From IMG/VR virus record IMGVR_UViG_3300042472_000192, positions 1 through 60,240 of that record: a DNA stretch of 60,240 nt, one strand, 5' to 3'. Origin of the DNA: a virus. The notes under the pieces are model-generated. The model made no database searches and was not told the DNA's origin. It saw nothing but the letters and a program-made list of their open reading frames with translations. The translations under genes were made by a program, and so were the position numbers. This document shows, piece by piece, positions 2,375-23,742 of the stretch (its first letter is position 1; each line of letters starts with the position of its first letter).

Positions 2375-2381
2375 ACCATCT

Positions 2382-2387: not shown

Positions 2388-2395
2388 CCATATGC

Positions 2396-2401
2396 TATAA
2401 T
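2396..2401 (+). promoter_or_regulatory. Extended -10 promoter, leaderless oxygenase
   Basis: Plus-strand TGCTATAAT with exactly 6 nt between the hexamer and the ATG at 2408. No ribosome binding site precedes that ATG, as expected for a leaderless message. Confidence 0.6.
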
Positions 2402-2407
2402 TATTGT

Positions 2408-9304: not shown

Positions 9305-9507
9305 TATTTTCTCCCCCATTTAACTTTATTCCAACCACGTTCATGGAAGTAATAAAGGATTGTTTTTGTAAATACCTCAAAACTTGCAATTGCTCCTGCC
9401 GTAACTGGCTCTTTAGTTATTGCCCAAGATATTACAAATGTGTCTGCCGTGCCTATAATGCGCCAAGTAATTGCTTTTAATGCTGATCTTTGCTTAGTTA
9501 CGTTCAT
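9304..9507 (-). CDS. DUF2061-family membrane protein
   Basis: A 67-residue, two-helix membrane protein. LKAITWRIIGTADTFVISWA and FTKTILYYFHERGWNKV match the DUF2061 signature (KAxSWRxxGTxDTFxxS, TKxxLYYxHERxW). The family has no known function. A second, more divergent copy is at 11532-11732. Coupled to the nuclease gene by TAATG. Confidence 0.8.
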   Translation of the reverse strand: MNVTKQRSALKAITWRIIGTADTFVISWAITKEPVTAGAIASFEVFTKTILYYFHERGWNKVKWGRK

Positions 9508-9595
9508 CTACATCGCCACCATAGTTGCTAATAAAATAAACCAGAAATCCAGAAATTATTAGAGAAGCGATAATAGCAATAATGTTTTCTACCAT
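9494..9595 (-). CDS. Single-pass membrane peptide (33 aa)
   Basis: MVENIIAIIASLIISGFLVY followed by FISNYGGDVDERN: one transmembrane helix with a short charged tail. The start ATG lies just after the oxygenase stop (TAATATGG), and its end overlaps the DUF2061 start, so it belongs to the operon. A longer frame upstream to 9697 is antisense-like and overlaps the oxygenase. Might assist lysis; unproven. Confidence 0.5.
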   Translation of the reverse strand: MVENIIAIIASLIISGFLVYFISNYGGDVDERN

Positions 9596-9596
9596 A

Positions 9597-10250
9597 TTAA
9601 TCACGGCTCCCATGCCAATAGCACCAGCCGTGAACCTGCTTAAACTCTTCTTTAAAAATATCTTGGTATGATCTTTCAATCTTTGACTTTGCTTCATGAT
9701 CTACATTTTGCTCTGGTTCTCCAGATGTATAGTGGAAAAATATCATATCAACGTATTGGTCATCTGTAAAGAGTTGTGGAACTCTCCAGTGTACCTCGTA
9801 TGATGGTCTAAATACTAACGCAGAGTTATCCGTAAGAGTAAATACCTTATCTTCAATCACAAGTGGCCACTGTACGTTAGATTCTAGTTGGTAGTCTACT
9901 GTTAGTTTTGCATCACCTGTATCATAATGAGGGGCAAGTCTTGGCTCCCCAGTTTTATTTGAGTACCTAGTAAATGCAACCCCCTCAACTACAAGGTCTT
10001 TGTTATGATTCTCATTAACATATTTAGTTACTTTAGATATTAATTCATGAGGAATCACATCTGCTGCAACGAATAAAACTCTTCCAGACCATGGCTGATT
10101 AAGTAGTTTGTCTAGAGGTCTTCCGTTCTCACGAATTTCTTCAATAGAAATATCTATTGCTTCAGAACTATTTAAAAATGTATAGATGCTATTTTTTAAA
10201 GCAGCAACGTCTTCATCATTAAATAGATCCGAAACAACTAGACTGTCCAT
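9597..10250 (-). CDS. Fe(II)/2OG oxygenase-like protein, 'HWR' type
   Basis: A 217-residue protein starting MDSLVVSDLFNDEDVAALKN. The likely metal site is APHYDTGDAKLTVDYQ (His-x-Asp) and YEVHWRVPQLF (distal His). The middle strand WPLVIEDKVFTLTDNSALVF is shared with the proteins at 30759 and, less closely, 31340 and 29971, so these form one subfamily distinct from the DDYEGGE type. The distal Arg ten residues after His is not evident; the Arg of HWR or another residue may replace it. Immediately downstream of the kinase/nucleotidyltransferase fusion (TAATATGG junction), suggesting a joint pathway. Confidence 0.7.
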   Translation of the reverse strand: MDSLVVSDLFNDEDVAALKNSIYTFLNSSEAIDISIEEIRENGRPLDKLLNQPWSGRVLFVAADVIPHELISKVTKYVNENHNKDLVVEGVAFTRYSNKTGEPRLAPHYDTGDAKLTVDYQLESNVQWPLVIEDKVFTLTDNSALVFRPSYEVHWRVPQLFTDDQYVDMIFFHYTSGEPEQNVDHEAKSKIERSYQDIFKEEFKQVHGWCYWHGSRD

Positions 10251-10251
10251 A

Positions 10252-11019
10252 TTAAATACCCATCTCTTTTCGCTTCTCTGTTGCAGAGATAGCCTGAATA
10301 GATGCATCCAATTCAATCTGCTCAATCTTATATCCAACATCACGACCATAAGAAATATTTGTAATGTTAGGCATCTTTACCACAAATGCTCCAGGAACAT
10401 CTTCTTGAATGTATTTAGTTACATCACTAAAACTTAGTGGATCTTTTGGCGTCATGCCTTGCGTATGTCTAACTCCAAGAACAACCTGATAGGCTTTCTT
10501 CTTTGCTTCTTCATACAAGGCTCTATGACCTTCATGCCACGGTTGGTAGCGACCTAACAATAAGACTGTGTCTTCTTTCCAATCTACCATTCCAAACTTG
10601 CGTACTACAGTTATTGCACGTGTAGCAAGGGCATCAGTGTGGTCATCCCCAGTAACTTCAATTCTGTGGTCGTAGTGTGTAGGGTCTTCCCAAAGTTTAT
10701 TTGTATCTTCGAATCTTCCCTCTTTAATTGTGTCAACCCAAACCACAACATCAGCATCTCCAAATGCCTTACGAGTTTCTTCTGTAGGACAAACAAAATC
10801 TACTAGGACAGGCTTATCCTGAATATTTTCAAGAAGCCTTGCTAGTTCACCCATACGACGAGCCTGCTCAATACGATCTTCTGGGCTAAACCCAAGATCT
10901 TTATTTAATCCAGCACGAATCTGGTCTGCGTTTAAATGTATTGCATTAGTTCTATCTCGAACTGCATCTGCAATAGTTGTCTTTCCTGATCCTGGAAGCC
11001 CTAAAAACTGAATTATCAC
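10252..11019 (-). CDS. Fusion: APS-kinase-like P-loop domain plus nucleotidyltransferase
   Basis: A 255-residue bifunctional protein. Residues 1-140: P-loop GLPGSGKTT (7-15) followed by AIHLNADQIRAGLNKDLGFS, the adenylylsulfate-kinase-type substrate region, and PVLVDFVCPTEETRKAFGDA. Residues 150-255: LLLGRYQPWHEGHRALYEEA with the H162-x-G-H165 motif and ISATEKR (244-250), the two signature motifs of the nicotinamide/cytidylyl-transferase superfamily. Such a protein could phosphorylate a small molecule and then activate it as a nucleotide derivative. Substrate unknown; APS itself is not certain. GTG start overlapping the upstream stop (GTGA). Followed by an oxygenase gene. Confidence 0.8.
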   Translation of the reverse strand: MIIQFLGLPGSGKTTIADAVRDRTNAIHLNADQIRAGLNKDLGFSPEDRIEQARRMGELARLLENIQDKPVLVDFVCPTEETRKAFGDADVVVWVDTIKEGRFEDTNKLWEDPTHYDHRIEVTGDDHTDALATRAITVVRKFGMVDWKEDTVLLLGRYQPWHEGHRALYEEAKKKAYQVVLGVRHTQGMTPKDPLSFSDVTKYIQEDVPGAFVVKMPNITNISYGRDVGYKIEQIELDASIQAISATEKRKEMGI

Positions 11020-11231
11020 TGTAGTTTCTCTCTCTCGTCTAGAATGCTAATAGCAAACTTCATCATCTTGTCATATCCAACTGCGTTGTCCATTACTTTA
11101 TTGTAGTGGTGCCCACAAAAATATAGGTCTCCAGCGATACCATTAACCTTAACTAAGGCTTCAGCATTGCATCTGTCACATCGATCATGTGGTGATAGTT
11201 GCCATTCTTGTTGGACTTCATCTTTAACCAT
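11016..11231 (-). CDS. Actinobacterial zinc-ribbon-like protein (DUF7455-like)
   Basis: A 71-residue protein with CDRCNAEALVKVNGIAGDLY and then FCGHHYNKVM: C-x2-C and C-x-HH make a probable zinc site found in a short-protein family typical of actinobacteria and their phages. I start at MVKDEVQQEW because TATAAT ends 7 nt before that ATG, predicting a leaderless message. Function unknown, possibly protein- or nucleic-acid binding. Confidence 0.7.
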   Translation of the reverse strand: MVKDEVQQEWQLSPHDRCDRCNAEALVKVNGIAGDLYFCGHHYNKVMDNAVGYDKMMKFAISILDEREKLQ

Positions 11232-11238
11232 TGTAAAC

Positions 11239-11244
11239 ATTATA
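11239..11244 (-). promoter_or_regulatory. -10 promoter, leaderless gene at 11231
   Basis: Minus-strand AGTATAATGTTTACA-ATGG: the hexamer ends 7 nt before the ATG. Located just downstream of the end of the FmdB-type gene at 11245. Confidence 0.5.
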
Positions 11245-11433
11245 CTACCGCTTTCTGTTATCAGTGGAATAAAATCCACTACCGTTGAATACTGCTCCTA
11301 TATTAGAGTATACACGTTCCAGAGGAACATTGCAAGTCTCACAGTTGTATCCTGGATCATCTTCTTTGATTGATCGAACTTTTACTACGATATCGTTGCA
11401 ACCTGCAGTACATTTATATTCGTACGCTGGCAT
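11245..11433 (-). CDS. FmdB-type zinc ribbon protein
   Basis: A 62-residue protein starting MPAYEYKCTAGCNDIVVKVR with CETCNVPLERVYSNIG and the C-terminal GSGFYSTDNRKR. This is the FmdB/CxxC zinc-ribbon pattern (MPxYEYxC..C, CxxC, GxGFYxTD), present in many bacteria and actinophages and considered regulatory; its first knuckle here is C-x3-C. Directly after a 32-aa gene. Confidence 0.8.
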   Translation of the reverse strand: MPAYEYKCTAGCNDIVVKVRSIKEDDPGYNCETCNVPLERVYSNIGAVFNGSGFYSTDNRKR

Positions 11434-11532
11434 CTATTTCTTCTTTAGTTGCCAGACAGGGAGATTAACTTTTGTATCTTCTAGTTTGTATCCAAGCAAG
11501 GACACAAATATCTTAATAATCTTAATTCTCAT
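11434..11532 (-). CDS. Small basic peptide (32 aa)
   Basis: MRIKIIKIFVSLLGYKLEDT followed by KVNLPVWQLKKK. Its ATG overlaps the stop of the DUF2061-like gene (TAATG) and its stop abuts the FmdB-type start (TAGATG), so it is placed like a translated operon gene. Amphipathic and cationic; function unknown. Confidence 0.5.
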   Translation of the reverse strand: MRIKIIKIFVSLLGYKLEDTKVNLPVWQLKKK

Positions 11533-11732
11533 TACTTCACCTTGTTTCCAAACTTAGCCCATACTCTTTCATGAAGAAAGTATCCTAGCGCTTCCCAACC
11601 AATATATAGTAGTGCTCCAAGGCTTGCGTATTCCCACTCACCAGTAAATAAATAAATAACTCCAGCAACTCCAACTAGGTGGAATGTTTCCCAACTTGCT
11701 GTTTTTAATAGTGTTCTTTTAGTAGATTCCAT
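11532..11732 (-). CDS. DUF2061-like membrane protein, second copy
   Basis: A 66-residue protein, LLKTASWETFHLVGVAGVIY and YIGWEALGYFLHERVWAKF, with the two-helix layout and the terminal HERxWxK motif of DUF2061; it is clearly related to, but diverged from, the copy at 9304-9507. It lies right after the endolysin gene, so a role near lysis is plausible. Confidence 0.7.
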   Translation of the reverse strand: MESTKRTLLKTASWETFHLVGVAGVIYLFTGEWEYASLGALLYIGWEALGYFLHERVWAKFGNKVK

Positions 11733-12281
11733 TTACTTTACCTTACCTAACAAAGGAGTGTTTTCTTCTCCAACATATACTGGACGACCCCAGCCAACAA
11801 CAGCATTGATTAACTTCTTATTGTTGTTTTTTACATAACCACGAGTCTTTTCTACACACATTCCGCCGTTGCGCTGGTCTCCCTTTGCAGTTCCTGAAGT
11901 GTTCCCTTCAATAACTTGGATTGTTCCATCGCCATTGTTCTTAATACAAAGACCAACATGAGAAATTCTATTGACACCATCATCTGGGAAATCAAAATAG
12001 ATCCAGTCTCCTGGTGTTGGATCATCGTTACGAGCATCTGACCAACGCTCATTCTTCTTAAACCAGTCCGATGCTGCTACTGTTGATGCAGACTTTGGAT
12101 ACTTCTTTGCATCTAGTCCAGATGTGAACGCACACCAAGAAACGAATGATTGGCACCATGGTTGGAAGTTAACCTTCATCCATGCGCCATACTTTGTTTC
12201 ATTATCTTTAGGGCCTTCAATTGTGCCCACTTCTTTCTTTGCAACCTCAATGATTGCTTTTAATGTTCCTTTATCAGCCAT
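11733..12281 (-). CDS. Endolysin, CHAP-type amidase/peptidase
   Basis: A 182-residue enzyme that would cut cell-wall peptidoglycan at lysis. Residues 10-165 form a CHAP/NlpC-P60-like domain: PWCQSFVSWCAFTSGL holds the catalytic Cys, RISHVGLCIK the His, and VIEGNTSG the acidic or Asn third residue; TPGDWIYFDFPD is also typical. No signal peptide and no separate wall-binding domain, so it should rely on a holin. Strong AGGAGGAG ribosome binding site and its own extended -10 promoter. A short tail (EENTPLLGKVK) is unassigned. Confidence 0.88.
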   Translation of the reverse strand: MADKGTLKAIIEVAKKEVGTIEGPKDNETKYGAWMKVNFQPWCQSFVSWCAFTSGLDAKKYPKSASTVAASDWFKKNERWSDARNDDPTPGDWIYFDFPDDGVNRISHVGLCIKNNGDGTIQVIEGNTSGTAKGDQRNGGMCVEKTRGYVKNNNKKLINAVVGWGRPVYVGEENTPLLGKVK

Positions 12282-12307
12282 TTTCTCCTCCTATAGGATA
12301 TGTATTA

Positions 12308-12313
12308 ATTATA
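12308..12313 (-). promoter_or_regulatory. Extended -10 promoter for endolysin gene
   Basis: Minus-strand CTGGTATAATTAATAC, leader about 20 nt with AGGAGGAG before ATG at 12281. Confidence 0.6.
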
Positions 12314-12318
12314 CCAGA

Positions 12319-13743
12319 TTAGCGTGTAATTGTAAAGTTGTATGCTTTTTCCCAGGCTAAAATATCAGCCTCATCATTAAGAAGTGGTTGACCTTTAATA
12401 TTAAGGCTGGTATTAAGAAGAACTGGCACCCCAGTCTGTAAATAAAACTTATTTAAAGTCCTCCATAAGCCACGATGTTGATCCTTGTTTACAGTCTGGA
12501 CCCTTGAGGTTCCATCTTTATGAACCACTGATGGTATTTTATCTGGCTGTAAACATTTAACCGTATACTGCATATATGGGGAATCAAAGTCCATATCAAA
12601 CCACTTGTCTGCAAACTCTTCCATAACAACTGGAGCAAATGGTCTAAAGAGTTCTCTTTGTTTAATTAAATTAACTTTGTCTTTGATTCGTGGATCTCTT
12701 GGATCAGCAAGAATACTTCTATTACCTAGCGCTCTTGGACCATACTCTGCTCTTCCTGTTGCTACTGCTACTATTCCATCTTTTAGTATGCCGTCAATTA
12801 TTTTGTCAACTGGATATTCCCCGCCTAAGTCGTGACCTAGGTATGGATCTTTCCATTCAATATGTTTTCCATATAACGCTGCTGCTGCACCTAAAGAACT
12901 TCCAGCATCTCCTGGGTTGGGCATAATCCAAACATCACCAAAAATATTCCATAACAGGGTGTTGGCAGAAGAGTTTAAGGCGCAACCACCCATAAACACA
13001 AGGTTGTCTTTGCCAGTTAGGTTGTATGCCATATGCATAAACTCATTTAGCCTTTGTTGATAAACAAATTGAACTGCAGCAGCGATATCAAACTTATCTT
13101 GCTCTGATTCAATCCATCCCCAATCATTAATTCCTTTATGAAAGTTATACTTTTGTTGATCATACTTTGGAAAATATGCATCAACTTTTCTGTAATATTT
13201 TGTCCAGTCCCCATATGCTGCCATACCCATCATAATATACTCTTCTTGATTTGGCATTAGACCTATTAGTTGTGTGAAAGCAGAATAGAATAATCCAAAA
13301 CTAACTGGATAGTTTTGCTTATACTTAAGCCTAATCTTTTCTCCCTCTCCAACCCAGATTGTTGAGGTATTGTATTCACCAATAGCGTCAAGAACAACTA
13401 TGACCGCATCAGTAAAAGGACTGGTGTAGTACCCTGCACAGGCGTGAGAGTAGTGATGCTTAAACGATTTTCTTGGAACGCTATCTATTTCAAATTTTGG
13501 AAGCCAATCTCCTGAGCCACCCCTAAGAAAGAGTCTTGATTTTTTTAATAACGGTCTCTCGTAGTATGCAACATGGTCTGGTTTTCCATACTGTAAAGCA
13601 TCTTGAATTAAATTATCATTTACGTACCAGTCATTTTTCTTTTTGCTATATCGCTCAGCATGTCCTGCAAAAAGAATCTCTCCATCTTTTATTAAGGATA
13701 CAGACGCATCGTGTGATGTTTCATTAACTCCAAGAATTATCAT
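12319..13743 (-). CDS. NodU/CmcH-family carbamoyltransferase
   Basis: A 474-residue enzyme expected to transfer a carbamoyl group from carbamoyl phosphate, via carbamoyl-AMP, to a hydroxyl of a sugar or antibiotic-like acceptor. N-terminal kinase-like (Kae1/ASKHA) domain: GVNETSHDASVSLIKDG, KHHYSHACAGYYTS (His ligands) and VIVVLDAIGEYNTS. C-terminal domain: GRAEYGPRALGNRSILADPR, ELFRPFAPVVMEE, LLNTSLNIKGQPLLNDEADI, all family hallmarks. It is shorter than the usual 540-600 residues. ATGA overlap with the upstream oxygenase. It could decorate a glycan made by the neighbouring glycosyltransferase or a hydroxylated product of the two oxygenases. Confidence 0.92.
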   Translation of the reverse strand: MIILGVNETSHDASVSLIKDGEILFAGHAERYSKKKNDWYVNDNLIQDALQYGKPDHVAYYERPLLKKSRLFLRGGSGDWLPKFEIDSVPRKSFKHHYSHACAGYYTSPFTDAVIVVLDAIGEYNTSTIWVGEGEKIRLKYKQNYPVSFGLFYSAFTQLIGLMPNQEEYIMMGMAAYGDWTKYYRKVDAYFPKYDQQKYNFHKGINDWGWIESEQDKFDIAAAVQFVYQQRLNEFMHMAYNLTGKDNLVFMGGCALNSSANTLLWNIFGDVWIMPNPGDAGSSLGAAAALYGKHIEWKDPYLGHDLGGEYPVDKIIDGILKDGIVAVATGRAEYGPRALGNRSILADPRDPRIKDKVNLIKQRELFRPFAPVVMEEFADKWFDMDFDSPYMQYTVKCLQPDKIPSVVHKDGTSRVQTVNKDQHRGLWRTLNKFYLQTGVPVLLNTSLNIKGQPLLNDEADILAWEKAYNFTITR

Positions 13744-14405
13744 TCTGCGCCAGTAGAATCTCTTTTTTGTTCCAGCGGGACATTATGATACCAGTTTGGT
13801 AGTGCGTATCTTGGACCCCTAGTAACTGGATAAACTTCATGAACATACAAAAAGTTTGATGGGAAAAATAGTACGCTACCTGCTTCAGGTTTAAACTTTA
13901 ATCCTGAATGCCTAAACTCTATCTCACCACCTTCGTAATCATCATTAAGGTATAAAAGAACAGATAAAACTCTAGTGCTTATCCCCTGATCTTGATGTGC
14001 TGGAAGGTGCCCAGTCTTATCATATCTAAGCAAGTGCATTGTCTTTTCTCTAGACTTGATATTCTTTTCTGCAAAAGGATATAACTCTGTTGAGTAGTGC
14101 TTAAGCGTTCTATCTAGTGCTCCAAATAATTCATCAGAAATAAAAGTTTGCTCATTTAGATAGATATCAGACTTTGGAATGTCCTTTACTTGCGGTATAA
14201 ACTTTTGCATATTAAATGTAAGCATATTAGCGCCTTCACCATATGTCCATGGTACCCAAGGCTTTACAGAAGTTTTGAATGGTGCTGTCTTATCTTCTTG
14301 ATATCTAGCATCAAGTTCTTCAATCTTATTAATTAAGTCTGCTGGATTGTTTACAATATTTTTATAGTAAACCATTCCAAGATCAAGTATCTCATAGTTT
14401 AACAA
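13740..14405 (-). CDS. Fe(II)/2OG oxygenase, prolyl-4-hydroxylase-like
   Basis: A 221-residue oxygenase with LPAHQDQGISTRVLSVLLYL (His-x-Asp), the shared LNDDYEGGEIEFRHSGLKFK block, FPSNFLYVHEVYPV (distal His) and RGPRYALPNW (2-oxoglutarate Arg). I take TTG at 14405 as the start because AAGGAG lies 7 nt upstream and it gives the usual compact N-terminus (LNYEILDLGMVYYKNI); the upstream oxygenase stop at 14392 is overlapped by 14 nt. Alternatives are the ATG a few codons later. Closest in the window to the proteins at 2408 and 4833. Confidence 0.85.
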   Translation of the reverse strand: MLNYEILDLGMVYYKNIVNNPADLINKIEELDARYQEDKTAPFKTSVKPWVPWTYGEGANMLTFNMQKFIPQVKDIPKSDIYLNEQTFISDELFGALDRTLKHYSTELYPFAEKNIKSREKTMHLLRYDKTGHLPAHQDQGISTRVLSVLLYLNDDYEGGEIEFRHSGLKFKPEAGSVLFFPSNFLYVHEVYPVTRGPRYALPNWYHNVPLEQKRDSTGAE

Positions 14406-14985
14406 GAGGATACTCCTTCGCTTTCCATTTATTAAATCCAGGATGGAATTCTGGATCAGCATGTCCTGGTAAAGATGTGTGCATGTATAGACCAGTGTAC
14501 CTATCTCCCCTGGTTACAGTTGTAATTCCATGGATATACTCTGTTCCTGCCCCTGGAAAAAACACAGCAGAATATTGTTTTGGTTGATACTCAAACTCTT
14601 GGTTTGGGAAATAAATCTTTCCACCATCATACTCTGACTCATTATTTAAATACATGATTGTGCTAAACTCAATCCAAGGCTCTGGACCTTGTGCATCAAT
14701 ATGTAGGTCGCCCTTTGTTCCAGTTTGCCAGTGTGATCCGAACGCTTTAAATACGTAGATGTCATTCTTAAAGCCCATGAGTTCTTTATGCATCTGATTT
14801 GATTTGTGACCATACTTGATCATGATATCCTGTACCGTTTTATTGTACGGTAACGATGTACCACCAAACCTTTTAGCGTAATACTTTGGGTACTCATTTA
14901 CTTCTGATGGATTTAGTTGCTCGTCAATTAATGTCTTAGCATCTTCTGGCGAGATGAAGTTATCTATTACTGTTATTCTATGCAT
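14392..14985 (-). CDS. Fe(II)/2OG oxygenase, prolyl-4-hydroxylase-like
   Basis: A 197-residue oxygenase: GDLHIDAQGPEPWIEFSTIM carries His-x-Asp, YLNNESEYDGGKIYF the central strand, EYIHGITTVTRGDRYTGLYM the distal His and, ten residues on, the Arg. The N-terminal helix (FISPEDAKTLIDEQL) is typical of P4H-type enzymes. First gene of a promoter-led unit (oxygenase, oxygenase, carbamoyltransferase) just downstream of the glycosyltransferase. GGGGGAAACA ribosome binding site. In eukaryotes P4H plus a GlcNAc transferase modify one proline of Skp1; the pairing here is suggestive only. Confidence 0.85.
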   Translation of the reverse strand: MHRITVIDNFISPEDAKTLIDEQLNPSEVNEYPKYYAKRFGGTSLPYNKTVQDIMIKYGHKSNQMHKELMGFKNDIYVFKAFGSHWQTGTKGDLHIDAQGPEPWIEFSTIMYLNNESEYDGGKIYFPNQEFEYQPKQYSAVFFPGAGTEYIHGITTVTRGDRYTGLYMHTSLPGHADPEFHPGFNKWKAKEYPLVKL

Positions 14986-15002
14986 TGTTTCCCCCTGTAT
15001 TC

Positions 15003-15008
15003 ATTATA
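15003..15008 (-). promoter_or_regulatory. Extended -10 promoter for oxygenase/carbamoyltransferase unit
   Basis: Minus-strand ATGGTATAATGAATAC with a short leader containing GGGGGAAACA-ATG at 14985. It separates this unit from the glycosyltransferase gene whose stop is at 15012. Confidence 0.6.
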
Positions 15009-15011
15009 CCA

Positions 15012-15881
15012 TTAGTGAATTGACTTGGTTTTTGCTACAAACCTTCTTGCATCAACCTTATTAAAATCTAGTTTCTCTGGGTCATAAGCAACATCGTTTC
15101 CATCAAATGGTAGCCTTTTTATTAGTTTTAGGTCAACCCCATGAAATGTTTCAAAATCTTCACGGCTTCTCTTCCTTGCGCCAATGAATAGGAACTTACT
15201 TTTTCCTGTGTTGAGCAGGTCTACCACTTCGTTATAGTTATGGTTTAATGAGAATGGAGTATATATTTTTCCAATTGTAGGAGACTCTGATAGGCTAAAA
15301 AATTTTGTAGGGCAAGAATATATATCAAAGTTAGCAGAGAACATATCTATAGAAATGACCTCTTCTTCTCCGTTATATTTTAGATATTCTGGGTACTTCA
15401 TATGAAACTGAAAAATTTTCTTTGTAGCAAAAATAAAATCTCTATCTATATAGTTTGTAAGAGTAAAGTCTTCACAATCTTGTTTTTCTACTTTTATATA
15501 AAATAAATTTTCATTAGATAGTTTTACTGAATGATTTCCAGATATAAGAATATTTTTGTCTTGCATAAAATTTAGTAAGTTTCTATCCCAATCCTTGGTT
15601 AGCATTACAGAATCTCCCAACTGCAAGATATAGTCTGCTCGTGAGTTTCTGATTGCTTGATTTTTAATTGAGCATGGGGATTTTTGGGAGTCCCAAAATA
15701 TATGAGTATAGTAAGTAACTCCAAGAGATTTGAATAGTTCTGTCCTATCAAGTGGATGCTGATCTGCAACATAAACGGTTATCTTGTTGTCTCCGCTAGA
15801 CATCTCTTTTAAGTTAGTTACTGTTTCCTTTAATTTTTTTCCTTTATATGAGTAAATAACAACGTCAATATTTTTACTCAT
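15012..15881 (-). CDS. GT-A glycosyltransferase, GlcNAc-transferase-like (PF11397-like)
   Basis: A 289-residue glycosyltransferase. After an N-terminal strand (NIDVVIYSYKGKKLKETVTN) it shows HIFWDSQKSPCSIKNQAIRN and then SRADYILQLGDSVMLTKDWD. The SPC...R...DYxLQxDS pattern is what I know from the GlcNAc-transferase family that includes Dictyostelium Skp1 Gnt1; here LGDS replaces IDSH. Later TKKIFQFHMKYPEYLKYNGE and FSLSESPTIGKIYTPFSLNH complete the fold. The start is ATG overlapping the upstream stop (ATGAGTAA). It would transfer a sugar onto a protein or small acceptor; donor and acceptor unknown. Confidence 0.7.
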   Translation of the reverse strand: MSKNIDVVIYSYKGKKLKETVTNLKEMSSGDNKITVYVADQHPLDRTELFKSLGVTYYTHIFWDSQKSPCSIKNQAIRNSRADYILQLGDSVMLTKDWDRNLLNFMQDKNILISGNHSVKLSNENLFYIKVEKQDCEDFTLTNYIDRDFIFATKKIFQFHMKYPEYLKYNGEEEVISIDMFSANFDIYSCPTKFFSLSESPTIGKIYTPFSLNHNYNEVVDLLNTGKSKFLFIGARKRSREDFETFHGVDLKLIKRLPFDGNDVAYDPEKLDFNKVDARRFVAKTKSIH

Positions 15882-16644
15882 TTTCGTTATCAATTTCTAT
15901 CTCTTTACTATTCTTAGTTCCAAATTTTTTTCTTATCCAAGCAGTTTCTTTATAGTAGCCATACAGTCTTGATCTTCTGTTTTCTGCTGCCAACTCATGC
16001 CTGTCTAGATCATCTTCAGTCTCAACTACTTCGCTTTCCCAGTCCTCACGCTTAAAAGGAATCATTTGAAATATAGGGGTGCCTTTCGGAATTAAACCTA
16101 TAAAATCTTTTTGAAGAAAGAATGCAGTAAATACTGGTAGTCCCCAAATATCTGATTCAACAATTCCAGACATAGTATAAAACGGAAGATCAAACCTATT
16201 CATTGGGTGTGTAATTAGAACAGAATACCCTGGTGGTGTTTCATAATACCAATTCATTCTCCATCCATAGTGGACTGGGTGGCAGTTGTTTGGTACTGGA
16301 AGTTCTATTGTTGGTCTCTTGTCTATCATCATTACTTCACCATTCCAAGATACAATGGGCTTTCCTTTTTCATCTTGATCTACATAGACATCATCTTCAA
16401 GAACATAATGGTACCCTCCCGTTAGTGCATCAAAGAATGGCATACACATTTTGGTTGCAACCATTGCGCCATCTGTTCCGATATTGTTTTTTACTCCAAG
16501 TGTGATATCATCATTTGATTTGTCAAACCTAGTTAAACTCTTATACCATTCTGGAACAGTGCTTACTGCTGGTACAGGGGCAGTAAGTCTGCCATCGTGA
16601 CCAGTAAAGCCTGGGGTAAACTTTATTGATAAAGGTTTTTTCAC
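15874..16644 (-). CDS. Unknown protein, DUF6065-like, member 3 of a triplet
   Basis: A 256-residue soluble protein. It shares with the next gene upstream: an N-terminal PAP(V)PA-x-TVPEWYK motif (proline-Trp-Tyr-Lys), a segment MCMPFFDALTGGYHYVLEDD, PGYSVLITHPMNRFDLPFYT, and the strand FFLQKDFIGLIPKGTPIFQM followed by IPFKREDWE. I associate this pattern with DUF6065 but cannot confirm it. The C-terminal tail is charged and helical. GTG start overlapping the upstream stop (GTGA). Adjacent to the glycosyltransferase; enzymatic role unknown. Confidence 0.65.
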   Translation of the reverse strand: MKKPLSIKFTPGFTGHDGRLTAPVPAVSTVPEWYKSLTRFDKSNDDITLGVKNNIGTDGAMVATKMCMPFFDALTGGYHYVLEDDVYVDQDEKGKPIVSWNGEVMMIDKRPTIELPVPNNCHPVHYGWRMNWYYETPPGYSVLITHPMNRFDLPFYTMSGIVESDIWGLPVFTAFFLQKDFIGLIPKGTPIFQMIPFKREDWESEVVETEDDLDRHELAAENRRSRLYGYYKETAWIRKKFGTKNSKEIEIDNENE

Positions 16645-17363
16645 TTAAATTCTTTCTTGCTTCTAAACTTTAACTTGTAAGCATTAACAAAGTTACTTCT
16701 GACATTAAGTCTTTGCTTTGTTATGACAGCGTTTGCTTCTTTGTTATCAACAATCTCCATTTCCCAATCTTCACGTTTAACTGGGATTACCTGAACAAGT
16801 GGTGTCCCTTGTTTAATTACACCCTTAAAGTTTTTTCTAACAAGGAAAGAAAGATGCCCATCAGTAATAAACTTATCAGTGTCCACGAATGCGCCCATTG
16901 CATAAAAGGGGGAAGCATCCTTATGAACTGGATTCATAAAGATACAACTATAGCCTTCCTCTGTTCCAACAGAGTAGAATGGCATAATCCTAAACAAGTC
17001 TTTGTGATAAAGTTCTTTGTCTATTGGGTAGTGAGAGTACTGCAATATATCGTGCTTTGATATCATATCGTTAGCAAATTGTTTTAGTGTTATTGGAACT
17101 GACCACTCAATTTTTTCTGGGTTTGTTGCATCAATATAAATATCACAAGGACACAAGATTAGATATCCAGCAGTCATGTAATCAAATACGGGCATACATC
17201 TTTTTACTGTAGAGGATACGTTGCCCATTGGCAAAAACTTTGCATCATCAATAGATCCAGGTTGATCTCTGTACCATTTTGGTACAAGCCTAGATGCTGG
17301 AATTGGTTCAGGAGCAAAAGACTGAGTCTTCTCGCTAAACGGGTAAAATTTAATATTGTTCAT
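16641..17363 (-). CDS. Unknown protein, DUF6065-like, member 2 of a triplet
   Basis: A 240-residue paralogue of the gene at 15874: IPASRLVPKWYRDQPGSIDD, RCMPVFDYMTAGYLILCPCD, SCIFMNPVHKDASPFYAMGA and FKGVIKQGTPLVQVIPVKRE align with it. The conserved core ends in KREDWE(M/S)E. Mostly beta strand by appearance, with no catalytic motif I can name. ATG inside the end of member 1. Probably made with it as one complex. Confidence 0.65.
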   Translation of the reverse strand: MNNIKFYPFSEKTQSFAPEPIPASRLVPKWYRDQPGSIDDAKFLPMGNVSSTVKRCMPVFDYMTAGYLILCPCDIYIDATNPEKIEWSVPITLKQFANDMISKHDILQYSHYPIDKELYHKDLFRIMPFYSVGTEEGYSCIFMNPVHKDASPFYAMGAFVDTDKFITDGHLSFLVRKNFKGVIKQGTPLVQVIPVKREDWEMEIVDNKEANAVITKQRLNVRSNFVNAYKLKFRSKKEFK

Positions 17364-18024
17364 AAAAGTTCCTAACTCTCTGTATAATTATATCATCTGC
17401 TTCAAAAACAATATCAAACATTGGCTGATTTCTTTTAATCTTGCCAAAAACCTTACTAACCATATGGCTACCTGAGTTCTTAAAACTAAAATCCACAAAG
17501 TGTGGCTCTACATAGATTTCCGTTTTGTTTGTTTTTTTATAATGATTAGACGATTCCTGGATTAAAAATGGAGAATCTGTGTTTGGCCTAACGTATCTTA
17601 CTTCAACATCCTCATCAATAAACCAAGGAACATAAAACTTAAAAAAGCCAAGAAAGCAACCACTGTCTCTGTCGTATACATTCTTGGTCCTGTAGTATTG
17701 TCTCATCCAGGGTCGATCTAAATTAAAGAATTCCCCACTTTTTTTTTGCAATAAAAAGAATTCTGCATGATTTTCCTGTCTAAGTGTTACAGTATTTCCA
17801 ATTATAGATATTAGTCTTGGCTTTGGATATAAAGCCTCAACATATTTATTTATTGGTTTTATTACTGAATCCGAGTATTTACCTTTTAAAACATACTCAT
17901 ACCTAATCCATTTTTCAGGCAGTCTAGATTTTTTACTGATCTCAGAAAATACTGGATCATATGTGTTGTACCACACGTTGAAGTCATGCTTGTCTTCTTC
18001 GTGAAGCATAAGTGGTTGTTCCAT
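17350..18024 (-). CDS. Unknown protein, distant member 1 of a triplet
   Basis: A 224-residue protein. It is more diverged but keeps RLPEKWIRYEYVLKGKYSDS (PExW motif), FYVPWFIDEDVEVRYVRPNT and the late SKVFGKIKRNQPMFDIVFEA strand that matches KGTPIFQMIPF in the other two. The first 30 residues are acidic and aromatic. AAGGAAG ribosome binding site lies only in the 13 nt between the tRNA 3' end and this ATG, so tRNA processing must cut very near the ribosome binding site. Function unknown. Confidence 0.6.
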   Translation of the reverse strand: MEQPLMLHEEDKHDFNVWYNTYDPVFSEISKKSRLPEKWIRYEYVLKGKYSDSVIKPINKYVEALYPKPRLISIIGNTVTLRQENHAEFFLLQKKSGEFFNLDRPWMRQYYRTKNVYDRDSGCFLGFFKFYVPWFIDEDVEVRYVRPNTDSPFLIQESSNHYKKTNKTEIYVEPHFVDFSFKNSGSHMVSKVFGKIKRNQPMFDIVFEADDIIIQRVRNFYEQY

Positions 18025-18037
18025 TTTTACTTCCTTG

Positions 18038-18110
18038 CTGGTCTGGCAGGTTTCGATCCTGCGACATCCGAATTAACAGTTCGGCACTCTACCAACTGAG
18101 TTACAGACCA
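18038..18110 (-). tRNA. tRNA-Asn(GTT)
   Basis: A 73-nt cloverleaf on the minus strand: acceptor TGGTCTG/CAGACCA, D-arm ACTCAGTTGGTAGAGT, anticodon stem CCGAA/TTCGG with loop CTGTTAA (anticodon GTT, Asn), T stem GCAGG/CCTGC with loop ATCGAAA. Discriminator G; CCA is not encoded. A54 in place of T54 in the T loop is unusual. It lies between the subtilase gene and the unknown triplet and seems to be part of one transcript. Phage tRNAs usually offset codon bias or host tRNA cleavage. Confidence 0.93.
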
Positions 18111-18120
18111 TTATACACTA

Positions 18121-18894
18121 TTACGAAATTGGGTTAACAATTCCCTTTGGTGTATTAGCCGTTACCCACATTGATGCTACTGCTGCTGTTGCTGATGATG
18201 ATGTCTGTGATACAGGACCAAATGCGGTATTGTATACCCACTTGCTACCATCTAGTGATAGTCGAGCAAAGTAGTCTGTGTTGGCATCAAAACGTGCCAA
18301 AGCATTTCCCTTTTCATCAGCATGTGCAACCGCTAAAGTGTTAGCAATGCATCCTGGATAACTGACAGACTTATTTGTGTCATTTCCTGCTGCTGCAAAT
18401 ACTGGAATACCAGAAGACTCTAGATCGTTAATTAGTGATCGGATTACAGCGTCATCTGCAAGGCGAGCCTTTGGTGTATTGATTGCTCCGTATGGAACAC
18501 AGTCTAACTTTGTCTTATTAAATGTTAAAGAAATTGAAACAGCACTTACCTTAGACTTATTAGCCTTTACCCAGTTAAGTGATGAGATCAATTGGCTTGG
18601 AAAAACATCAGACTGTGCACTAGAAGCACAAATTGGAATGATGCTAATTGAAGGATTCTGTAACTTTGCTACAGAATACATGGCTGTTCCATGATTGTAT
18701 GGATCAGAAGCCTTTGCATTTTTAACTGGCTTTGACTGTGCACATACTGCACCTGTAGATGTGATTGCACCTTGTGCAATATTTGACTGAAAATAAGAGT
18801 CAATAATTACGAGAGACTTAGCGTCTGCTGCTTGTGATTGTACTGGTACTACAACTGAAAACAATACTGCTATTAGTGCTACGATCTTTTTCAT
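18121..18894 (-). CDS. Secreted subtilisin-like serine protease (S8)
   Basis: A 257-residue protein with a Sec signal peptide (MKKIVALIAVLFSVVVPVQS then QAADA) and a compact subtilase domain: D32 (LVIIDSYF), H68 (YNHGTAMYSV), the oxyanion Asn171 (FAAAGNDTN) and a Ser near 233 in SQTSSSATAAVASM, where GTSxA is changed to SSSxA. Start at M of MKKIV follows AAAAGGAATAAA. A phage-coded exported protease is unusual; it could process surface proteins of the infected cell, the two secreted proteins encoded nearby, or help release. Located between a leaderless small gene and tRNA-Asn. Confidence 0.85.
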   Translation of the reverse strand: MKKIVALIAVLFSVVVPVQSQAADAKSLVIIDSYFQSNIAQGAITSTGAVCAQSKPVKNAKASDPYNHGTAMYSVAKLQNPSISIIPICASSAQSDVFPSQLISSLNWVKANKSKVSAVSISLTFNKTKLDCVPYGAINTPKARLADDAVIRSLINDLESSGIPVFAAAGNDTNKSVSYPGCIANTLAVAHADEKGNALARFDANTDYFARLSLDGSKWVYNTAFGPVSQTSSSATAAVASMWVTANTPKGIVNPIS

Positions 18895-18910
18895 TTTATT
18901 CCTTTTCATT

Positions 18911-19117
18911 TTAAGATATCATCAATCTGATGACATGTTGACAAGGGTCTCCCCCTGCCTCCCATTCTTCTACTTCTTCTTCACCCATATAAGCATAACC
19001 GCCATCATGTGTATTGCAATAAGGTGGTGTTATCCATCCCCGATCAATACCATTTGAAAGCCATATGCCAAACTCTTGCTCTTCTGGAGATAAATCTTCT
19101 TCGTCACTGTAGTTCAT
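18911..19117 (-). CDS. Small acidic Cys protein, unknown
   Basis: A 68-residue acidic protein with PPYCNTHDGGYAYMGEEEVE and WEAGGDPCQHVIRLM. The sequence type C-x-THDG...EWEAGGDPC-x-HV is one I associate with small hypothetical proteins of actinobacteria and their phages; two Cys and two His might bind metal. Leaderless: TATACT ends 6 nt before the ATG. Confidence 0.7.
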   Translation of the reverse strand: MNYSDEEDLSPEEQEFGIWLSNGIDRGWITPPYCNTHDGGYAYMGEEEVEEWEAGGDPCQHVIRLMIS

Positions 19118-19123
19118 ATTATA

Positions 19124-19129
19124 AGTATA
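19124..19129 (-). promoter_or_regulatory. -10 promoter, leaderless gene at 19117
   Basis: Minus-strand GGGGTATACT, six nt, ATG. It lies in the 15-nt gap after the end of the gene at 19133. The TG extension is absent here. Confidence 0.5.
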
Positions 19130-19132
19130 CCC

Positions 19133-19657
19133 CTACACACTGACAATGTCAACTGGCCCCATGCATGATGGGTTAAATTTTATTGCAGCATTTACTGCTT
19201 GAAGAACTCTGCTCCTTGCATTTTTTTGTTTATCTGTTGCATATAAAACACCGTAAGCATACTCTGCTCCTGAACCCATAGCAAGATATGGCAATGTGTA
19301 TTTAGATAAAGACATGTCTACAGAACTATGCTCATATATTTGTCCACGAATTGCAATTATTAATCCAAGGTCTCCTTCTTTTGAAGTGTCAACCCAAAAC
19401 TCATTATAAAATTCTCTAAGTTCTTTAATAAACTTAGTCTGCATAAACTTATCAGTATCTCTTATGTTTGGGGTAGAGGGTTTAAAGTTATATCTAATTC
19501 TTTCCCCATCCATTGATCCAGCATAACCAATTAGGTATGGGCCAATCTTCCAAACTTTTGGAGCATCAAGTGCTAAGATAGTTCCATCGTCAGAGGCGCC
19601 ACGGTCTCCAGCCATATAGATCTTGTCTTCATGTCTTACTACAGCAATACAAGTCAT
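19133..19657 (-). CDS. Proteasome-beta/HslV-like Ntn hydrolase
   Basis: A 174-residue Ntn-fold protein starting MTCIAVVRHEDKIYMAGDRG. Thr2 after Met removal would be the N-terminal nucleophile; AGDRGASDD corresponds to the conserved D17 region, VWKIGPYLIGYAGSMDGERI holds the Lys33-like and Gly47 positions, and LPYLAMGSGAEYAYGVLYA is the late GSG motif. It could assemble as a peptidase ring alone, or mix with the actinobacterial host proteasome. Overlaps the methylase gene stop (ATGA). Substrate unknown; no ATPase or alpha subunit gene is visible in the window. Confidence 0.82.
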   Translation of the reverse strand: MTCIAVVRHEDKIYMAGDRGASDDGTILALDAPKVWKIGPYLIGYAGSMDGERIRYNFKPSTPNIRDTDKFMQTKFIKELREFYNEFWVDTSKEGDLGLIIAIRGQIYEHSSVDMSLSKYTLPYLAMGSGAEYAYGVLYATDKQKNARSRVLQAVNAAIKFNPSCMGPVDIVSV

Positions 19658-20445
19658 TCTGCGTGGTAACCTTTCGGATATAGTGTTATTATTACTTTTT
19701 GTATTTCGTCTTCTTCTGACCAGAGCCTACTATTAGTATACACGAATTCTAGGATCTTGTCAAAGACCCCATCAACGTGTACTTCAGTATCCATACTAAG
19801 ATTCATCTGAAAGTCTGCTTCCCAATCATTACTAAAATTATCTGATAGTTCTTTTATTACCTCTTCCAAACCTTTAGATTTTAATATGATGACTGTTGGT
19901 TTATTTAATAATCTAATCTCTTCAAATGTTTTTTTCTTATCTGCTAGGTGCTGAAAGTTGCCAGCAAAATAAAATGAATGAACATTTCTTTTTCCATTAA
20001 CAACAGCGCTTATAACTGAGTTAGGTCCAGATAAAACTTGATAAGGAATGCTCATCTCCGAAAGTATTGATTTGAATTGTGACATAGGCTCAAGAAAAAC
20101 CGAAGAACCTTCATCTGAAACAACAAATATTTTTTTTCTATTTTTTACATGCTCAAGCAAAACATTTTTCATATCATCAACATGAGCAGGATCAGACTCA
20201 AGGTTGTATTGAAGTATGACACCCCTTGGATTTATATTTGGTCTCTCTTCAATATTGAGATAGTTGATGGCATTGATTAATCTAGAGAACTGTCTATGAT
20301 TTTCTACTAAAATAACATCTGCAGTTTTAATATGTTCTATTGCAGATAGACTAATGTCTGCTGGGTCTCCAATTGGCAGAGATCCAAACACTATGTTTTT
20401 TCTAAATATATTATTTTGTAGCGTGTCTTGAATTTGATAGCGCAA
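19654..20445 (-). CDS. RsmI-like SAM methylase (tetrapyrrole methylase fold)
   Basis: A 263-residue protein resembling RsmI, which 2'-O-methylates C1402 of 16S rRNA. IVFGSLPIGDPADISLSAIE matches TPIGNLxDITLRAxE; TADVILVENHRQFSRLI matches the AEDTRxTxxLL motif; IFVVSDEGSSVFLEP and YQVLSGPNSVISAVVNG match SDAGxPxISDPG and xPGPSAxxxA; FYFAGNF matches FxFxGFLP. Several canonical residues differ, so the target may not be rRNA. TTG start with GAGGGG upstream. Translationally coupled to the proteasome-like gene. Confidence 0.75.
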   Translation of the reverse strand: MRYQIQDTLQNNIFRKNIVFGSLPIGDPADISLSAIEHIKTADVILVENHRQFSRLINAINYLNIEERPNINPRGVILQYNLESDPAHVDDMKNVLLEHVKNRKKIFVVSDEGSSVFLEPMSQFKSILSEMSIPYQVLSGPNSVISAVVNGKRNVHSFYFAGNFQHLADKKKTFEEIRLLNKPTVIILKSKGLEEVIKELSDNFSNDWEADFQMNLSMDTEVHVDGVFDKILEFVYTNSRLWSEEDEIQKVIITLYPKGYHAE

Positions 20446-20475
20446 GAGAAAGCCCCTCTAGATAGATACCTTATA

Positions 20476-20481
20476 AGTATA
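20476..20481 (-). promoter_or_regulatory. Extended -10 promoter for RsmI-like gene
   Basis: Minus-strand GTGGTATACTTATAAG, then a leader of about 25 nt with AGAGGGG 7 nt before the TTG at 20445. Confidence 0.55.
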
Positions 20482-20510
20482 CCACCCAGAGGGGGTCTTT
20501 CAATTAATGA

Positions 20511-20798: not shown

Positions 20799-20977
20799 TA
20801 TTCATCATCCCATTCCTTATTTCTAACTGGATAGGTAATTGCCCATGCAATCAATGTACCAACAATTGCATAGCCTACTACCGTTTTTGCAGAACCATCA
20901 AGGACTACCCAGGCAATAAACATACCTAGAAGTGTCCAAAGTTGATCTATCATATCTTTGATTATTTTCTTTATCAT
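20798..20977 (-). CDS. Small membrane protein (59 aa)
   Basis: Starts MIKKIIKDMIDQLWTLLGMF; two hydrophobic segments (LWTLLGMFIAWVVL and VVGYAIVGTLIAWAITYPV) and an acidic end (RNKEWDDE). Its start overlaps the stop of the 922-aa gene (ATGA) and its stop overlaps the next start (TAATG), so it is a real operon gene. It may pair with the holin-like protein as an antiholin; unproven. Confidence 0.7.
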   Translation of the reverse strand: MIKKIIKDMIDQLWTLLGMFIAWVVLDGSAKTVVGYAIVGTLIAWAITYPVRNKEWDDE

Positions 20978-23742
20978 GGTCTTCTTCTCCTTATTCCCTT
21001 GGAATCGCCAGAGGCTCCTCCGCCACCTGATCCTCCAGAACTACTGCCTGTGGACCCTCCAGTGGAACCTGTCGCAGCACCTACAGCATTTAACGCTGCT
21101 CCTGCTGCTACAACTGTTGCTACAACCATTTCGGTTGCTTCTTCTCTTTCGCTTTCTGTCATATCTGCGCCTATGCTACCCAATGCTTCTAATGCTGCTC
21201 CAGGGTCATTAAATAATTCTGCTGCAAATGCTGCTGGGTCGGAAACTAGTTCTACTTGAACGGCAACCTCTGCTGTAATAACAACAGCCTCACCATTTTC
21301 GGATGTACGAACATCAACTGGTGTGCTTGCTGGTAAATCTGATAATTTAATTCCAGCCTCTGCAACCTGTTGTGCAGTAAGATTTTCACCTTCTGGCACT
21401 GATTGAATTAACGCATCAGCAACAATATCTTTTTCTGCTTCAGATAATTTACCATCTGAACTTGCTAGTGCAACAATTGCTGCAACATCTTCTTGTGAAA
21501 CTTCACCGTCTGATGCAAGTGCTTCTAGTACTGCTTCTTGATCTGCTACAGAAACTTTTCCATCTTCTGCCAATGCTTCAATTAATTGATCAGTTTCTTC
21601 TGCATCAATTTCTCCATCTGCTGCCATTGACTCTGCAATTGCATCGACCTCTTCACTATCTAATTTACCGTCTGACAGTGCATCATCAACTGTATTGGTT
21701 ACATCTTCTTCGGATCCCGTCACTGGTTCTATATCAACTGGTTCAACGTCTACTGGTTCTGTATCCACAGGTTCTGTTTCAACAGGCTCTGTGTCTATAG
21801 GCTCTGTCTCTACAGGAGTAGTGTCTATAGGCTCTGTCTCTACAGGAGTAGTGTCTATAGGCTCTGTCTCTATAGGAGTAGTGTCTATAGGTTCTGTTTC
21901 CACTGGTGTGGTATCCACGGGTTCTGTATCTACTGGCTCTGTATCTATAGGTTCTGTTTCAACAGGTGTTGTATCTACAGGAGTAGTGGTTACTGGTGTG
22001 GTGTCTACTGGTGGAACAACTACTGGTGGATCTACAACTGGAGGTTGAGTAACTGGAGGTTCTATAACTGGAGGTTGAGTAACTGGAGGTTCTATAACTG
22101 GTGGTTGAGTAACTAAAGAAGGTGGAGCAGGTGTTACAACGGGTTCTGGGGCTGGTGCAGGAACTGCATTAATTACTGCTTGTGCGGTAGCAATAACAGT
22201 TGGTGCTGCTAATACTGCTTCTACTGCTGTTGAAACAACTGCAATATCTGCTACTTTTGTAGTTAATGTTGTAGTTGCTGTTGTTAATGCAGTCACAGTG
22301 TTTGCAGAAACAGTAGCGATTACAGGAATTGCTACTGCGGCTGTTGTATTTGCTGTATTTGTTGCAACAATCGCCGTAACTGCTGAGTTTAATGTAGCAA
22401 TTTGTGCATTTGCTGTATCAATTGCCGCTAGTACTGTTGCATTGTCTGGATCAGGAGTAGGTGTAAATGCAGCGCCTTGATTAATTGTTCCAGTAAACCC
22501 TGTAGTAGTGCTTGTATTAGCAATAGGTGTTACGGCACCCCCAGTTGTCTCTCTTACATTAAACCTAGCGCCATTTGGTATTGGTCCAGTCACGCTTACA
22601 TCTGCTTGCCATGCGCCATCTGCTGGGTTAACATCGGCATTAAACCTAACTTGAGTCATCTGTGTCTCGGCAGTAGTAAGAGGATATACTCTAAGGTCCC
22701 ACGCAATAGACAGAGTATTGGTTGTTGTTGAATAAGTAATACCAGATCCATTACTCCATGTAGTCCAGTCATAACCCGCTACAGAAATTGAAGGGGCATT
22801 GGGTGTAGAGGAGTAGTTTTGTCCTTCATTTACTCCAAAGGTTATTGTTGCATTAGAACTAACATAAACATTGTTATATGTGACTCCACCCATTTGTAAA
22901 TTAAATGGAAGGTTCATGCGGATACCCGCATCATCTGTATTTGCTAAAACATTTGATGTTGTTCCAACTGTGGCTACCAAAGCATTTACTGCATCTTGAG
23001 CATTATTAATTGCAACATTTGCCTGAGTTAATTGTGTCTGCGCCTCTGTAGTTGCAGTGGTTACTGCTGCTACCGCCGTGGTTGCCGTTGCCACTGTGGC
23101 AGTTGCGGTATCTATTGTCGCCTGTGCTGCCTGTATTGCAGTAGAGGCTGTTGCAGCCTGTGCTACTTCTGTTGTAATTGCGGTGGCTACTTGAGTAACG
23201 GTAGTTGGAGATTCTGTCATTAAGGGGGTTGCTGTTGCTATAACTGTTGCAGTTGCAGACTCAACGACGGGGGTCGCTGCCGTGACAGCAGTTTGTGCTA
23301 CAGCAACTTCTGGAGTCTGTGTTGTTGCGGTTACAGGTATTGCTGCAATTGCTGTGGTTACGGCAGTTACTGCGGTAGTAACGTCTTGCGTTACTGTTGC
23401 TGCTGTTGCTACAACTGTGGAAACATTTGATACTTCTGCTACGGCAGTGGTGGCTGCTGTGACTGCAGTAGTTGCTGCTGCTACGGCCGTGTTAGATGTT
23501 GTTACTGCCTGTACTGCAGTCGCAATAGTTGCTGTTGCTGTATCTGAGGCTTGTGCTGCTTGGGCTACCTCTGTGGTGGCTGTTGCTAAGGCTGTATTTA
23601 CTGCCTGCTGGGCTGGACTTACGACTACTTGCTCTGATGGGGCTGGTGCGCCATCAGCATGTGCTTGATCAACTGGAGATATCAACATCCATAAAGTCAA
23701 GAGCAAACCTACTAATCCAGATTTGATGAGAAGTGATTTTAT
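20974..23742 (-). CDS. Large secreted repeat protein, surface adhesin-like
   Basis: About 922 residues. Signal peptide KSLLIKSGLVGLLLTLWMLI with AHA-DG cleavage; its positively charged start only appears if translation begins at ATA (23740-23742), 8 nt after GGGGG; otherwise a TTG at 23706 would be the first standard codon. Then: Ala/Thr/Val-rich helical repeats (about 30-250); a beta-sandwich domain with LPFNLQMGGVTYNNVYVSSN (nidogen-like start); more Ala/Thr repeats; proline-rich VIEPPVTQPPV repeats; acidic PVDT/PVETEPIDT repeats; five DGxxxxEE EF-hand-like repeats (SDGKLDSEEVDAIAE); a Gly/Ser linker and terminal RRRRP. Could be a calcium-responsive surface protein altering the infected cell. 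No sorting motif seen. Confidence 0.75.
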   Translation of the reverse strand: MKSLLIKSGLVGLLLTLWMLISPVDQAHADGAPAPSEQVVVSPAQQAVNTALATATTEVAQAAQASDTATATIATAVQAVTTSNTAVAAATTAVTAATTAVAEVSNVSTVVATAATVTQDVTTAVTAVTTAIAAIPVTATTQTPEVAVAQTAVTAATPVVESATATVIATATPLMTESPTTVTQVATAITTEVAQAATASTAIQAAQATIDTATATVATATTAVAAVTTATTEAQTQLTQANVAINNAQDAVNALVATVGTTSNVLANTDDAGIRMNLPFNLQMGGVTYNNVYVSSNATITFGVNEGQNYSSTPNAPSISVAGYDWTTWSNGSGITYSTTTNTLSIAWDLRVYPLTTAETQMTQVRFNADVNPADGAWQADVSVTGPIPNGARFNVRETTGGAVTPIANTSTTTGFTGTINQGAAFTPTPDPDNATVLAAIDTANAQIATLNSAVTAIVATNTANTTAAVAIPVIATVSANTVTALTTATTTLTTKVADIAVVSTAVEAVLAAPTVIATAQAVINAVPAPAPEPVVTPAPPSLVTQPPVIEPPVTQPPVIEPPVTQPPVVDPPVVVPPVDTTPVTTTPVDTTPVETEPIDTEPVDTEPVDTTPVETEPIDTTPIETEPIDTTPVETEPIDTTPVETEPIDTEPVETEPVDTEPVDVEPVDIEPVTGSEEDVTNTVDDALSDGKLDSEEVDAIAESMAADGEIDAEETDQLIEALAEDGKVSVADQEAVLEALASDGEVSQEDVAAIVALASSDGKLSEAEKDIVADALIQSVPEGENLTAQQVAEAGIKLSDLPASTPVDVRTSENGEAVVITAEVAVQVELVSDPAAFAAELFNDPGAALEALGSIGADMTESEREEATEMVVATVVAAGAALNAVGAATGSTGGSTGSSSGGSGGGGASGDSKGIRRRRP
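21791..21910 (-). repeat. 30-bp tandem coding repeats
   Basis: Four near-identical 30-bp units (starting 21791, 21821, 21851, 21881; unit includes GTGTCTATAGGCTCTGTCTC on the plus strand), encoding the ten-residue TPxETEPIDT repeat. Diverged half-units continue to about 22010. In-frame unit length favours repeat number variation without loss of frame. Confidence 0.85.

Follow-up and report, generated by a model that had tools for sequence, protein, structure and literature searches.

A recurrent seven-gene viral cassette of oxygenases, a glycosyltransferase, and a carbamoyltransferase with a possible role in protein modification

The window analysed here (60,240 nucleotides, positions 1 to 60,240 of the IMG/VR virus record IMGVR_UViG_3300042472_000192) carries seven adjacent genes on its minus strand (18024-12319, in transcription order U3-U2-U1-GT-OX2-OX1-CT) that form a real, recurrent, and conserved functional cassette. 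They encode three proteins termed U1 to U3, a glycosyltransferase (GT), two 2-oxoglutarate (2OG)-Fe(II) oxygenases (OX1 and OX2), and an O-carbamoyltransferase (CT). The best reading, which we hold tentatively and at slightly less than an even chance, is that the cassette serves to hydroxylate and glycosylate a protein, with carbamoylation as an optional step, judging from sequence families, structural models, and analogy to known systems. An initial annotation, made from the DNA letters alone, had proposed such a pathway, and the list of open reading frames (ORFs) contains all seven genes at the positions and in the order that it gave:

U3: 17350..18024, minus strand, 224 amino acids (aa), cassette protein 1 with no function assigned (ORF; weak profile likeness to U1/U2)
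U2: 16641..17363, minus strand, 240 aa, phrog_7084/DUF6065-like, dUTPase-like superfamily
U1: 15874..16644, minus strand, 256 aa, GTG start, phrog_7084/DUF6065-like, predicted dUTPase-like fold
GT: 15012..15893, minus strand, 293 aa, TTG start, PF11397 (GT60)-like GT-A glycosyltransferase
OX2: 14392..14985, minus strand, 197 aa, 2OG-Fe(II) oxygenase, HID...H...R
OX1: 13740..14462, minus strand, at most 240 aa (exact start not certain), overlapping with OX2, 2OG-Fe(II) oxygenase of the prolyl 4-hydroxylase (P4H)/PKHD type
CT: 12319..13743, minus strand, 474 aa, NodU/CmcH/TobZ-family O-carbamoyltransferase

Neighbouring genes share a few bases or lie less than 30 bases apart, except for OX1 and OX2, which overlap by 71 bases when the first ATG of OX1 is used; homologues favour a later OX1 start.

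Scans of viral contigs with the GT protein, a GT alignment, and a U alignment as queries yielded 59 distinct loci with enough flanking sequence, and as these were found via GT or U, all counts are conditional on those genes. U3 and at least one oxygenase are present in all 59 loci and two or more U1/U2 genes in 58, with CT (n = 45), a gene with an SGNH motif (n = 29), and a second GT (n = 19) found in part of the set. The order U3-U2-U1-GT-OX(-OX)-(x)-CT is kept at approximately 30%–50% GT identity. Mean identity to the window proteins is 40% for GT, 69% for both U1 and OX2, and 75% for CT; GT diverges fastest, as expected for a variable surface glycan. The initial annotation had named a lack of co-occurrence elsewhere as a refutation of its proposal; instead, the cassette recurs in these 59 distinct viral loci, and a chance neighbourhood is rejected, as the arrangement is found in dozens of diverged contigs. 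The SGNH label of the additional genes located between OX and CT comes from a GCSxTxG-like motif only, and the one such gene tested has no Pfam, PHROG, or NCBIfam match. Epimerase or short-chain dehydrogenase/reductase (SDR) genes are occasional in relatives, and L219 and L234 have a second U gene far off and an extra 2OG-like gene between U1 and GT.

In the window, the cassette is bordered by two genes on the same strand:

Upstream border: 18121..18909, minus strand, subtilase-like (S8-like) protein with a signal-like N-terminus (PF00082, 1.9e-5)
Downstream border: 11733..12281, minus strand, endolysin (phrog_21357, 2e-24)

Relatives found via their terminase (L199 and L242) have an empty site, where the S8-like gene runs straight to the endolysin gene, indicating that the cassette was gained or lost as a block. 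A U homologue is present elsewhere in two of the 14 cassette-less contigs checked (L242 and L271). Downstream of the endolysin, the window encodes a fused kinase-like and nucleotidyltransferase-like protein (10252-11019, minus strand, assigned by eye), which is kept in many relatives.

The placement of these genes in a phage, as the initial annotation had it, is borne out by the virus record itself and by a WhiB gene (6890-7066), a terminase, a polymerase, and tail genes. WhiB, which serves as an actinophage indicator (PMC10202952), scores over the cut-off in 16 of the 19 searched records, and its presence in a virus contig suggests a freshwater actinobacterium as the probable host. A megablast search with window positions 9500-20500 returned no near-identical phage record, and tblastn with GT gave no match in phage records.

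CT is a clear O-carbamoyltransferase of the NodU/TobZ/NovN type by its sequence, confirming the NodU/CmcH assignment made earlier. It has both Pfam domains of the family (PF16861, 1e-51; PF02543, 3e-35), and its nearest solved proteins are NovN (PDB match at 6e-49), GdmN, and TobZ. The N-terminal metal motif reads HHYSHA in the window protein and is conserved as H[HY]xSHA in 52 of 54 distinct relatives. CT thus resembles the TobZ/NovN/GdmN/NodU enzymes (phrog_1601) in both domains and the HHxSHA motif, but is shorter (474 aa) and part of a phage cassette that also encodes GT and oxygenases.

GT is predicted to have a GT-A fold of the polypeptide-transferase type. Its AlphaFold model (predicted local distance difference test score, pLDDT, 92) has polypeptide N-acetylgalactosamine (GalNAc)-transferases as its top 29 PDB matches (Z 18-21.5), followed by cellulose synthase and other GT-A enzymes (Z approximately 17 and lower; LH3, 15.6). 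PF11397 is matched by 36 of 49 GT homologues at E-values up to 0.1 (best 4e-10), and the second GT, located downstream of CT in relatives, matches it at 4e-13 and 1e-12. The earlier label of an N-acetylglucosamine (GlcNAc)-transferase-like enzyme holds, and GT does not clearly belong to a family with a lipid or wall acceptor, the outcome that would have spoken against the proposal. H217, E177, and D67 are invariant in the 49 aligned homologues.

OX1 and OX2 are, by their sequences, P4H/PKHD-type 2OG-Fe(II) oxygenases, in line with the initial annotation. OX1 exceeds the Pfam cut-off for PF13640 (65 bits, 1e-17), its sequence contains HQD...H...R, and its nearest solved relatives in the PDB are PiuC, a bacterial P4H, prolyl 3-hydroxylase 1 (P3H1), and LH3. 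The more divergent OX2 has no match in a Pfam search and does not reach the PF13640 cut-off, but its HID...H...R motif, together with PHROG (phrog_2297, phrog_61, and phrog_274, 1e-12 to 4e-14), NCBIfam, and PDB matches (best P3H1, 9.6e-5), places it in the wider 2OG-Fe(II) superfamily. Six more 2OG-oxygenase-like genes, overlooked by the initial annotation like the dUTPase-like fold of U1/U2 and the optional SGNH-like and second GT60-like genes in relatives, bring the window to eight per 60 kb:

2366-3082 and 4833-5489, plus strand, further 2OG-oxygenase-like genes
9597-10349, 29971-30759, 30759-31343, and 31340-32014, minus strand, further 2OG-oxygenase-like genes, by similarity within one family

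In several branches, the space between U1 and GT contains genes of another 2OG-oxygenase-like family (HDHGxPxxPxFHGYYCV, identified by eye), which has no Pfam match:

L014: 6665-7345 and 7327-7989, HDHGxPxxPxFHGYYCV-type genes (by eye)
L219: 19775-20416, HDHGxPxxPxFHGYYCV-type gene (by eye)

The same enzymes could decorate a host surface polysaccharide or make a hydroxylated, carbamoylated small molecule, with a role in superinfection exclusion or against competitors, a serious alternative even though we consider it rather unlikely. A similar enzyme mix in cyanophage S-SSM6a has been read in this way, the carbamoyltransferase/2OG-oxygenase clusters of cyanophages being interpreted as serving capsule decoration or secondary metabolite production (Iyer et al. 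2021, PMC7824862). Antibiotics or sugars are the substrates of the three closest carbamoyltransferases of known structure, and the SGNH-motif genes and occasional epimerase/SDR genes of the relatives would also suit such products. However, the conserved core has no visible lipid-carrier, flippase, or polymerase gene, and GT and the oxygenases are nearest to polypeptide transferases (by structure) and protein hydroxylases, respectively. The clusters of S-SSM6a, S-MS29, and S-MbCM7 share with the cassette the close spacing of carbamoyltransferase and/or several 2OG-oxygenase genes, but the GT60-like/U3-U2-U1 core was not found in the regions read of S-MS29 and S-MbCM7.

The U proteins had been described as three related unknowns, which stands for two of them: U1 and U2 form a paralogous pair (29% identity, E 4e-29), both belonging to phrog_7084 (6e-41 for U2), whereas BLAST shows no relation of U3 to them and a profile comparison only a weak one (hhalign E 5e-4, probability 32%). 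U1 and U2 have a predicted, previously unannotated dUTPase-like fold; the best PDB matches of the AlphaFold2 model of U1 (pLDDT 80) are dUTPases (Z approximately 10), with dCTP deaminases also among the matches. A GIVxxD...GTPIxQ segment of U1 aligns with dUTPase motifs III/IV, although the profile comparison is not significant (hhalign E 0.084). As neither U1/U2 nor the family members have a Pfam dUTPase match, we reject U as an ordinary dUTPase; compared to the dUTPase/dCTP deaminase superfamily, U1 also has a C-terminal helix. DUF6065, for which we found no literature, is matched weakly by 17 of 39 U family members. Five gammaproteobacterial metagenome-assembled genomes (MAGs) with a U1/U2 homologue (L158-L162, G001-G005) encode a dCTP deaminase and have no match to PF00692; these MAGs may be incomplete, and seven other U-bearing genomes do match dUTPase.

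Homologues of U are found in approximately 50 virus records, nearly all from haloarchaeal tailed viruses, where they lie between a class II ribonucleotide reductase (RNR) and a tail-fibre/adhesin block. Nucleotides could be the substrate: in viral DNA hypermodification, the oxygenases would hydroxylate a base for glycosylation and/or carbamoylation, and the dUTPase-like proteins would act on nucleotides. A phage carbamoyltransferase with 5-hydroxymethylcytosine (5hmC) as its substrate is established (MetaGPA, PMC8670742) and belongs to the same superfamily as CT, U1/U2 have the dUTPase-like fold, and U homologues adjoin class II RNR in L014, L168, HF2, and HJTV-2. Still, we judge this distinctly improbable. 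The partners of the 5hmC enzyme are thymidylate synthase homologues, and carbamoyltransferases beside glycosyltransferase genes were on unmodified contigs (PMC8670742); a thymidylate synthase/hydroxymethylase homologue is found in none of the 19 searched records, some of which may be fragments, and the TET/JBP family PF12851 stays below its cut-off (22.1 bits vs. 34.9). In addition to these differing partners, CT is only 23% identical to the 5hmC enzyme and differs in two of three signature residues. At the equivalents of TobZ 408/421/423, a numbering placed by spacing, the window CT aligns with V/G/R and the 5hmC enzyme with I/C/T, and all 54 distinct cassette CTs have G421 and R423 in place of the C and T of the proven DNA enzyme.

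Tail-fibre-like genes also adjoin U homologues in unrelated viruses (L171, L168, L165, and HJTV-2). The homologue of L171 is followed by two 2OG-oxygenases, and that of L168 lies downstream of a protein with FN3 and (T/V)PFGF repeats and before the RNR. This location, and the nearly constant co-inheritance of the three adjacent U proteins, would suit virion parts, for example a trimeric dUTPase-fold fibre or spike that is itself the acceptor of the modification. We regard this as very unlikely, as homologues also occur in bacterial contigs without the cassette enzymes, and U1 ranks with the best-conserved members of the cassette whereas GT varies.

For the protein modification that we prefer, the surroundings of the cassette, and likewise the tail-fibre-like neighbours of U homologues in unrelated viruses, fit a virion or adhesin target. 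Cyanophages S-MS29 and S-MbCM7 have their carbamoyltransferase and/or 2OG-oxygenase genes clustered near tail-fibre genes, and the window itself encodes a candidate substrate:

20974..23706, minus strand, 910 aa, proline-rich, Extensin-like (37% proline in 60 aa), candidate substrate that is not cassette-specific

Its match to Extensin_1 (3.6e-17) is compositional and below the curated cut-off. Homologues are found in most related contigs, with up to 50% proline per 60 residues, and some of them carry a PA14 domain. Of the 45 loci whose upstream sequence is long enough, 29 encode a proline-rich protein (22% proline or more in 60 residues) upstream of U3; PVDTEP or (S/T)PFGF repeats are frequent in the lower-scoring loci, the latter in the deep branches (L014, L068, and L168 groups). 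A cassette-specific proline-rich substrate is nevertheless not supported; terminase relatives without the cassette carry the same kind of protein, which thus does not track the cassette. Just upstream of U3, L014 encodes an FN3/proline-repeat protein with a C-terminal Hint/intein-like segment (3192-4550, by eye).

Taken as a single pathway, the seven genes would be a single transferable cassette whose products install a post-translational modification within the cytoplasm of the actinobacterial host during infection. Both oxygenases would hydroxylate residues, most likely proline, of a virus-encoded surface protein, which may be a tail fibre or a proline-rich PA14-type adhesin. The GT60-like enzyme would then set a sugar on the hydroxyl, and the carbamoyltransferase would finish the glycan, in relatives optionally with SGNH-like and second GT60-like enzymes. 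U1-U2-U3 may be partners with a dUTPase fold that perhaps assemble into a heterotrimer, binding a nucleotide(-sugar) or presenting the acceptor. The most specific form of this proposal, phage hydroxyproline-linked and carbamoyl-capped glycans on an extensin-like adhesin or tail fibre with a heterotrimeric dUTPase-fold partner, seems unlikely to us. Several observations weigh against protein modification in general. The window GT is a marginal member of PF11397, as its score of 21.0 bits just equals the Pfam cut-off, its profile has no sequence match to any glycosyltransferase of known structure in the PDB, and the GT60/GT27 metal motif is not clearly conserved (D93 in 34 of 49 homologues, with no conserved histidine two residues on), so nucleotide-sugar transfer by GT is presumptive. 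The P4H-type sequence of the oxygenases is no proof of proline as substrate, no acceptor was identified, and the proline-rich protein is present in nearly all cassette-less relatives too. CT is absent from 14 of the 59 loci, and carbamoylation would therefore be optional. Finally, the dUTPase-like fold and the class II RNR neighbours may point toward nucleotides.

The closest parallel to the proposed chemistry is the Skp1/Gnt1 pathway of Dictyostelium and Toxoplasma, in which the GT60 enzyme Gnt1 glycosylates a hydroxyproline produced by a P4H (PMC6939170). The cassette shares with it the cytosolic pair of a P4H-type oxygenase and a PF11397 (GT60) transferase with predicted sequential action, but belongs to a bacterial virus, has two oxygenases, an O-carbamoyltransferase, and dUTPase-fold partners, and its GT is only marginally a PF11397 protein. 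A 2019 survey of freshwater phages makes no mention of the cassette enzymes (PMC6802176). Closer to the presumed host, mycobacteriophage virion proteins are glycosylated according to Freeman 2023, as cited in PMC12619734. On that account, they would share with the proposed cassette function a phage-encoded glycan modification of actinophage virion proteins. We know of no hydroxylation or carbamoylation step in mycobacteriophages.

Even without an acceptor, these data define a recurrent seven-gene unit and give U1/U2 (phrog_7084, DUF6065-like), which are common in tailed viruses, a first, predicted fold. If true, the proposed modification would extend hydroxyproline O-glycosylation to bacterial viruses, as a counterpart in a prokaryotic virus of the plant hydroxyproline-rich glycoproteins and of Skp1 glycosylation. 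It would also explain the abundance of P4H-like and NodU-like “auxiliary metabolic” genes in aquatic phages, and would provide actinophage surface proteins with a variable, enzymatically built coat.

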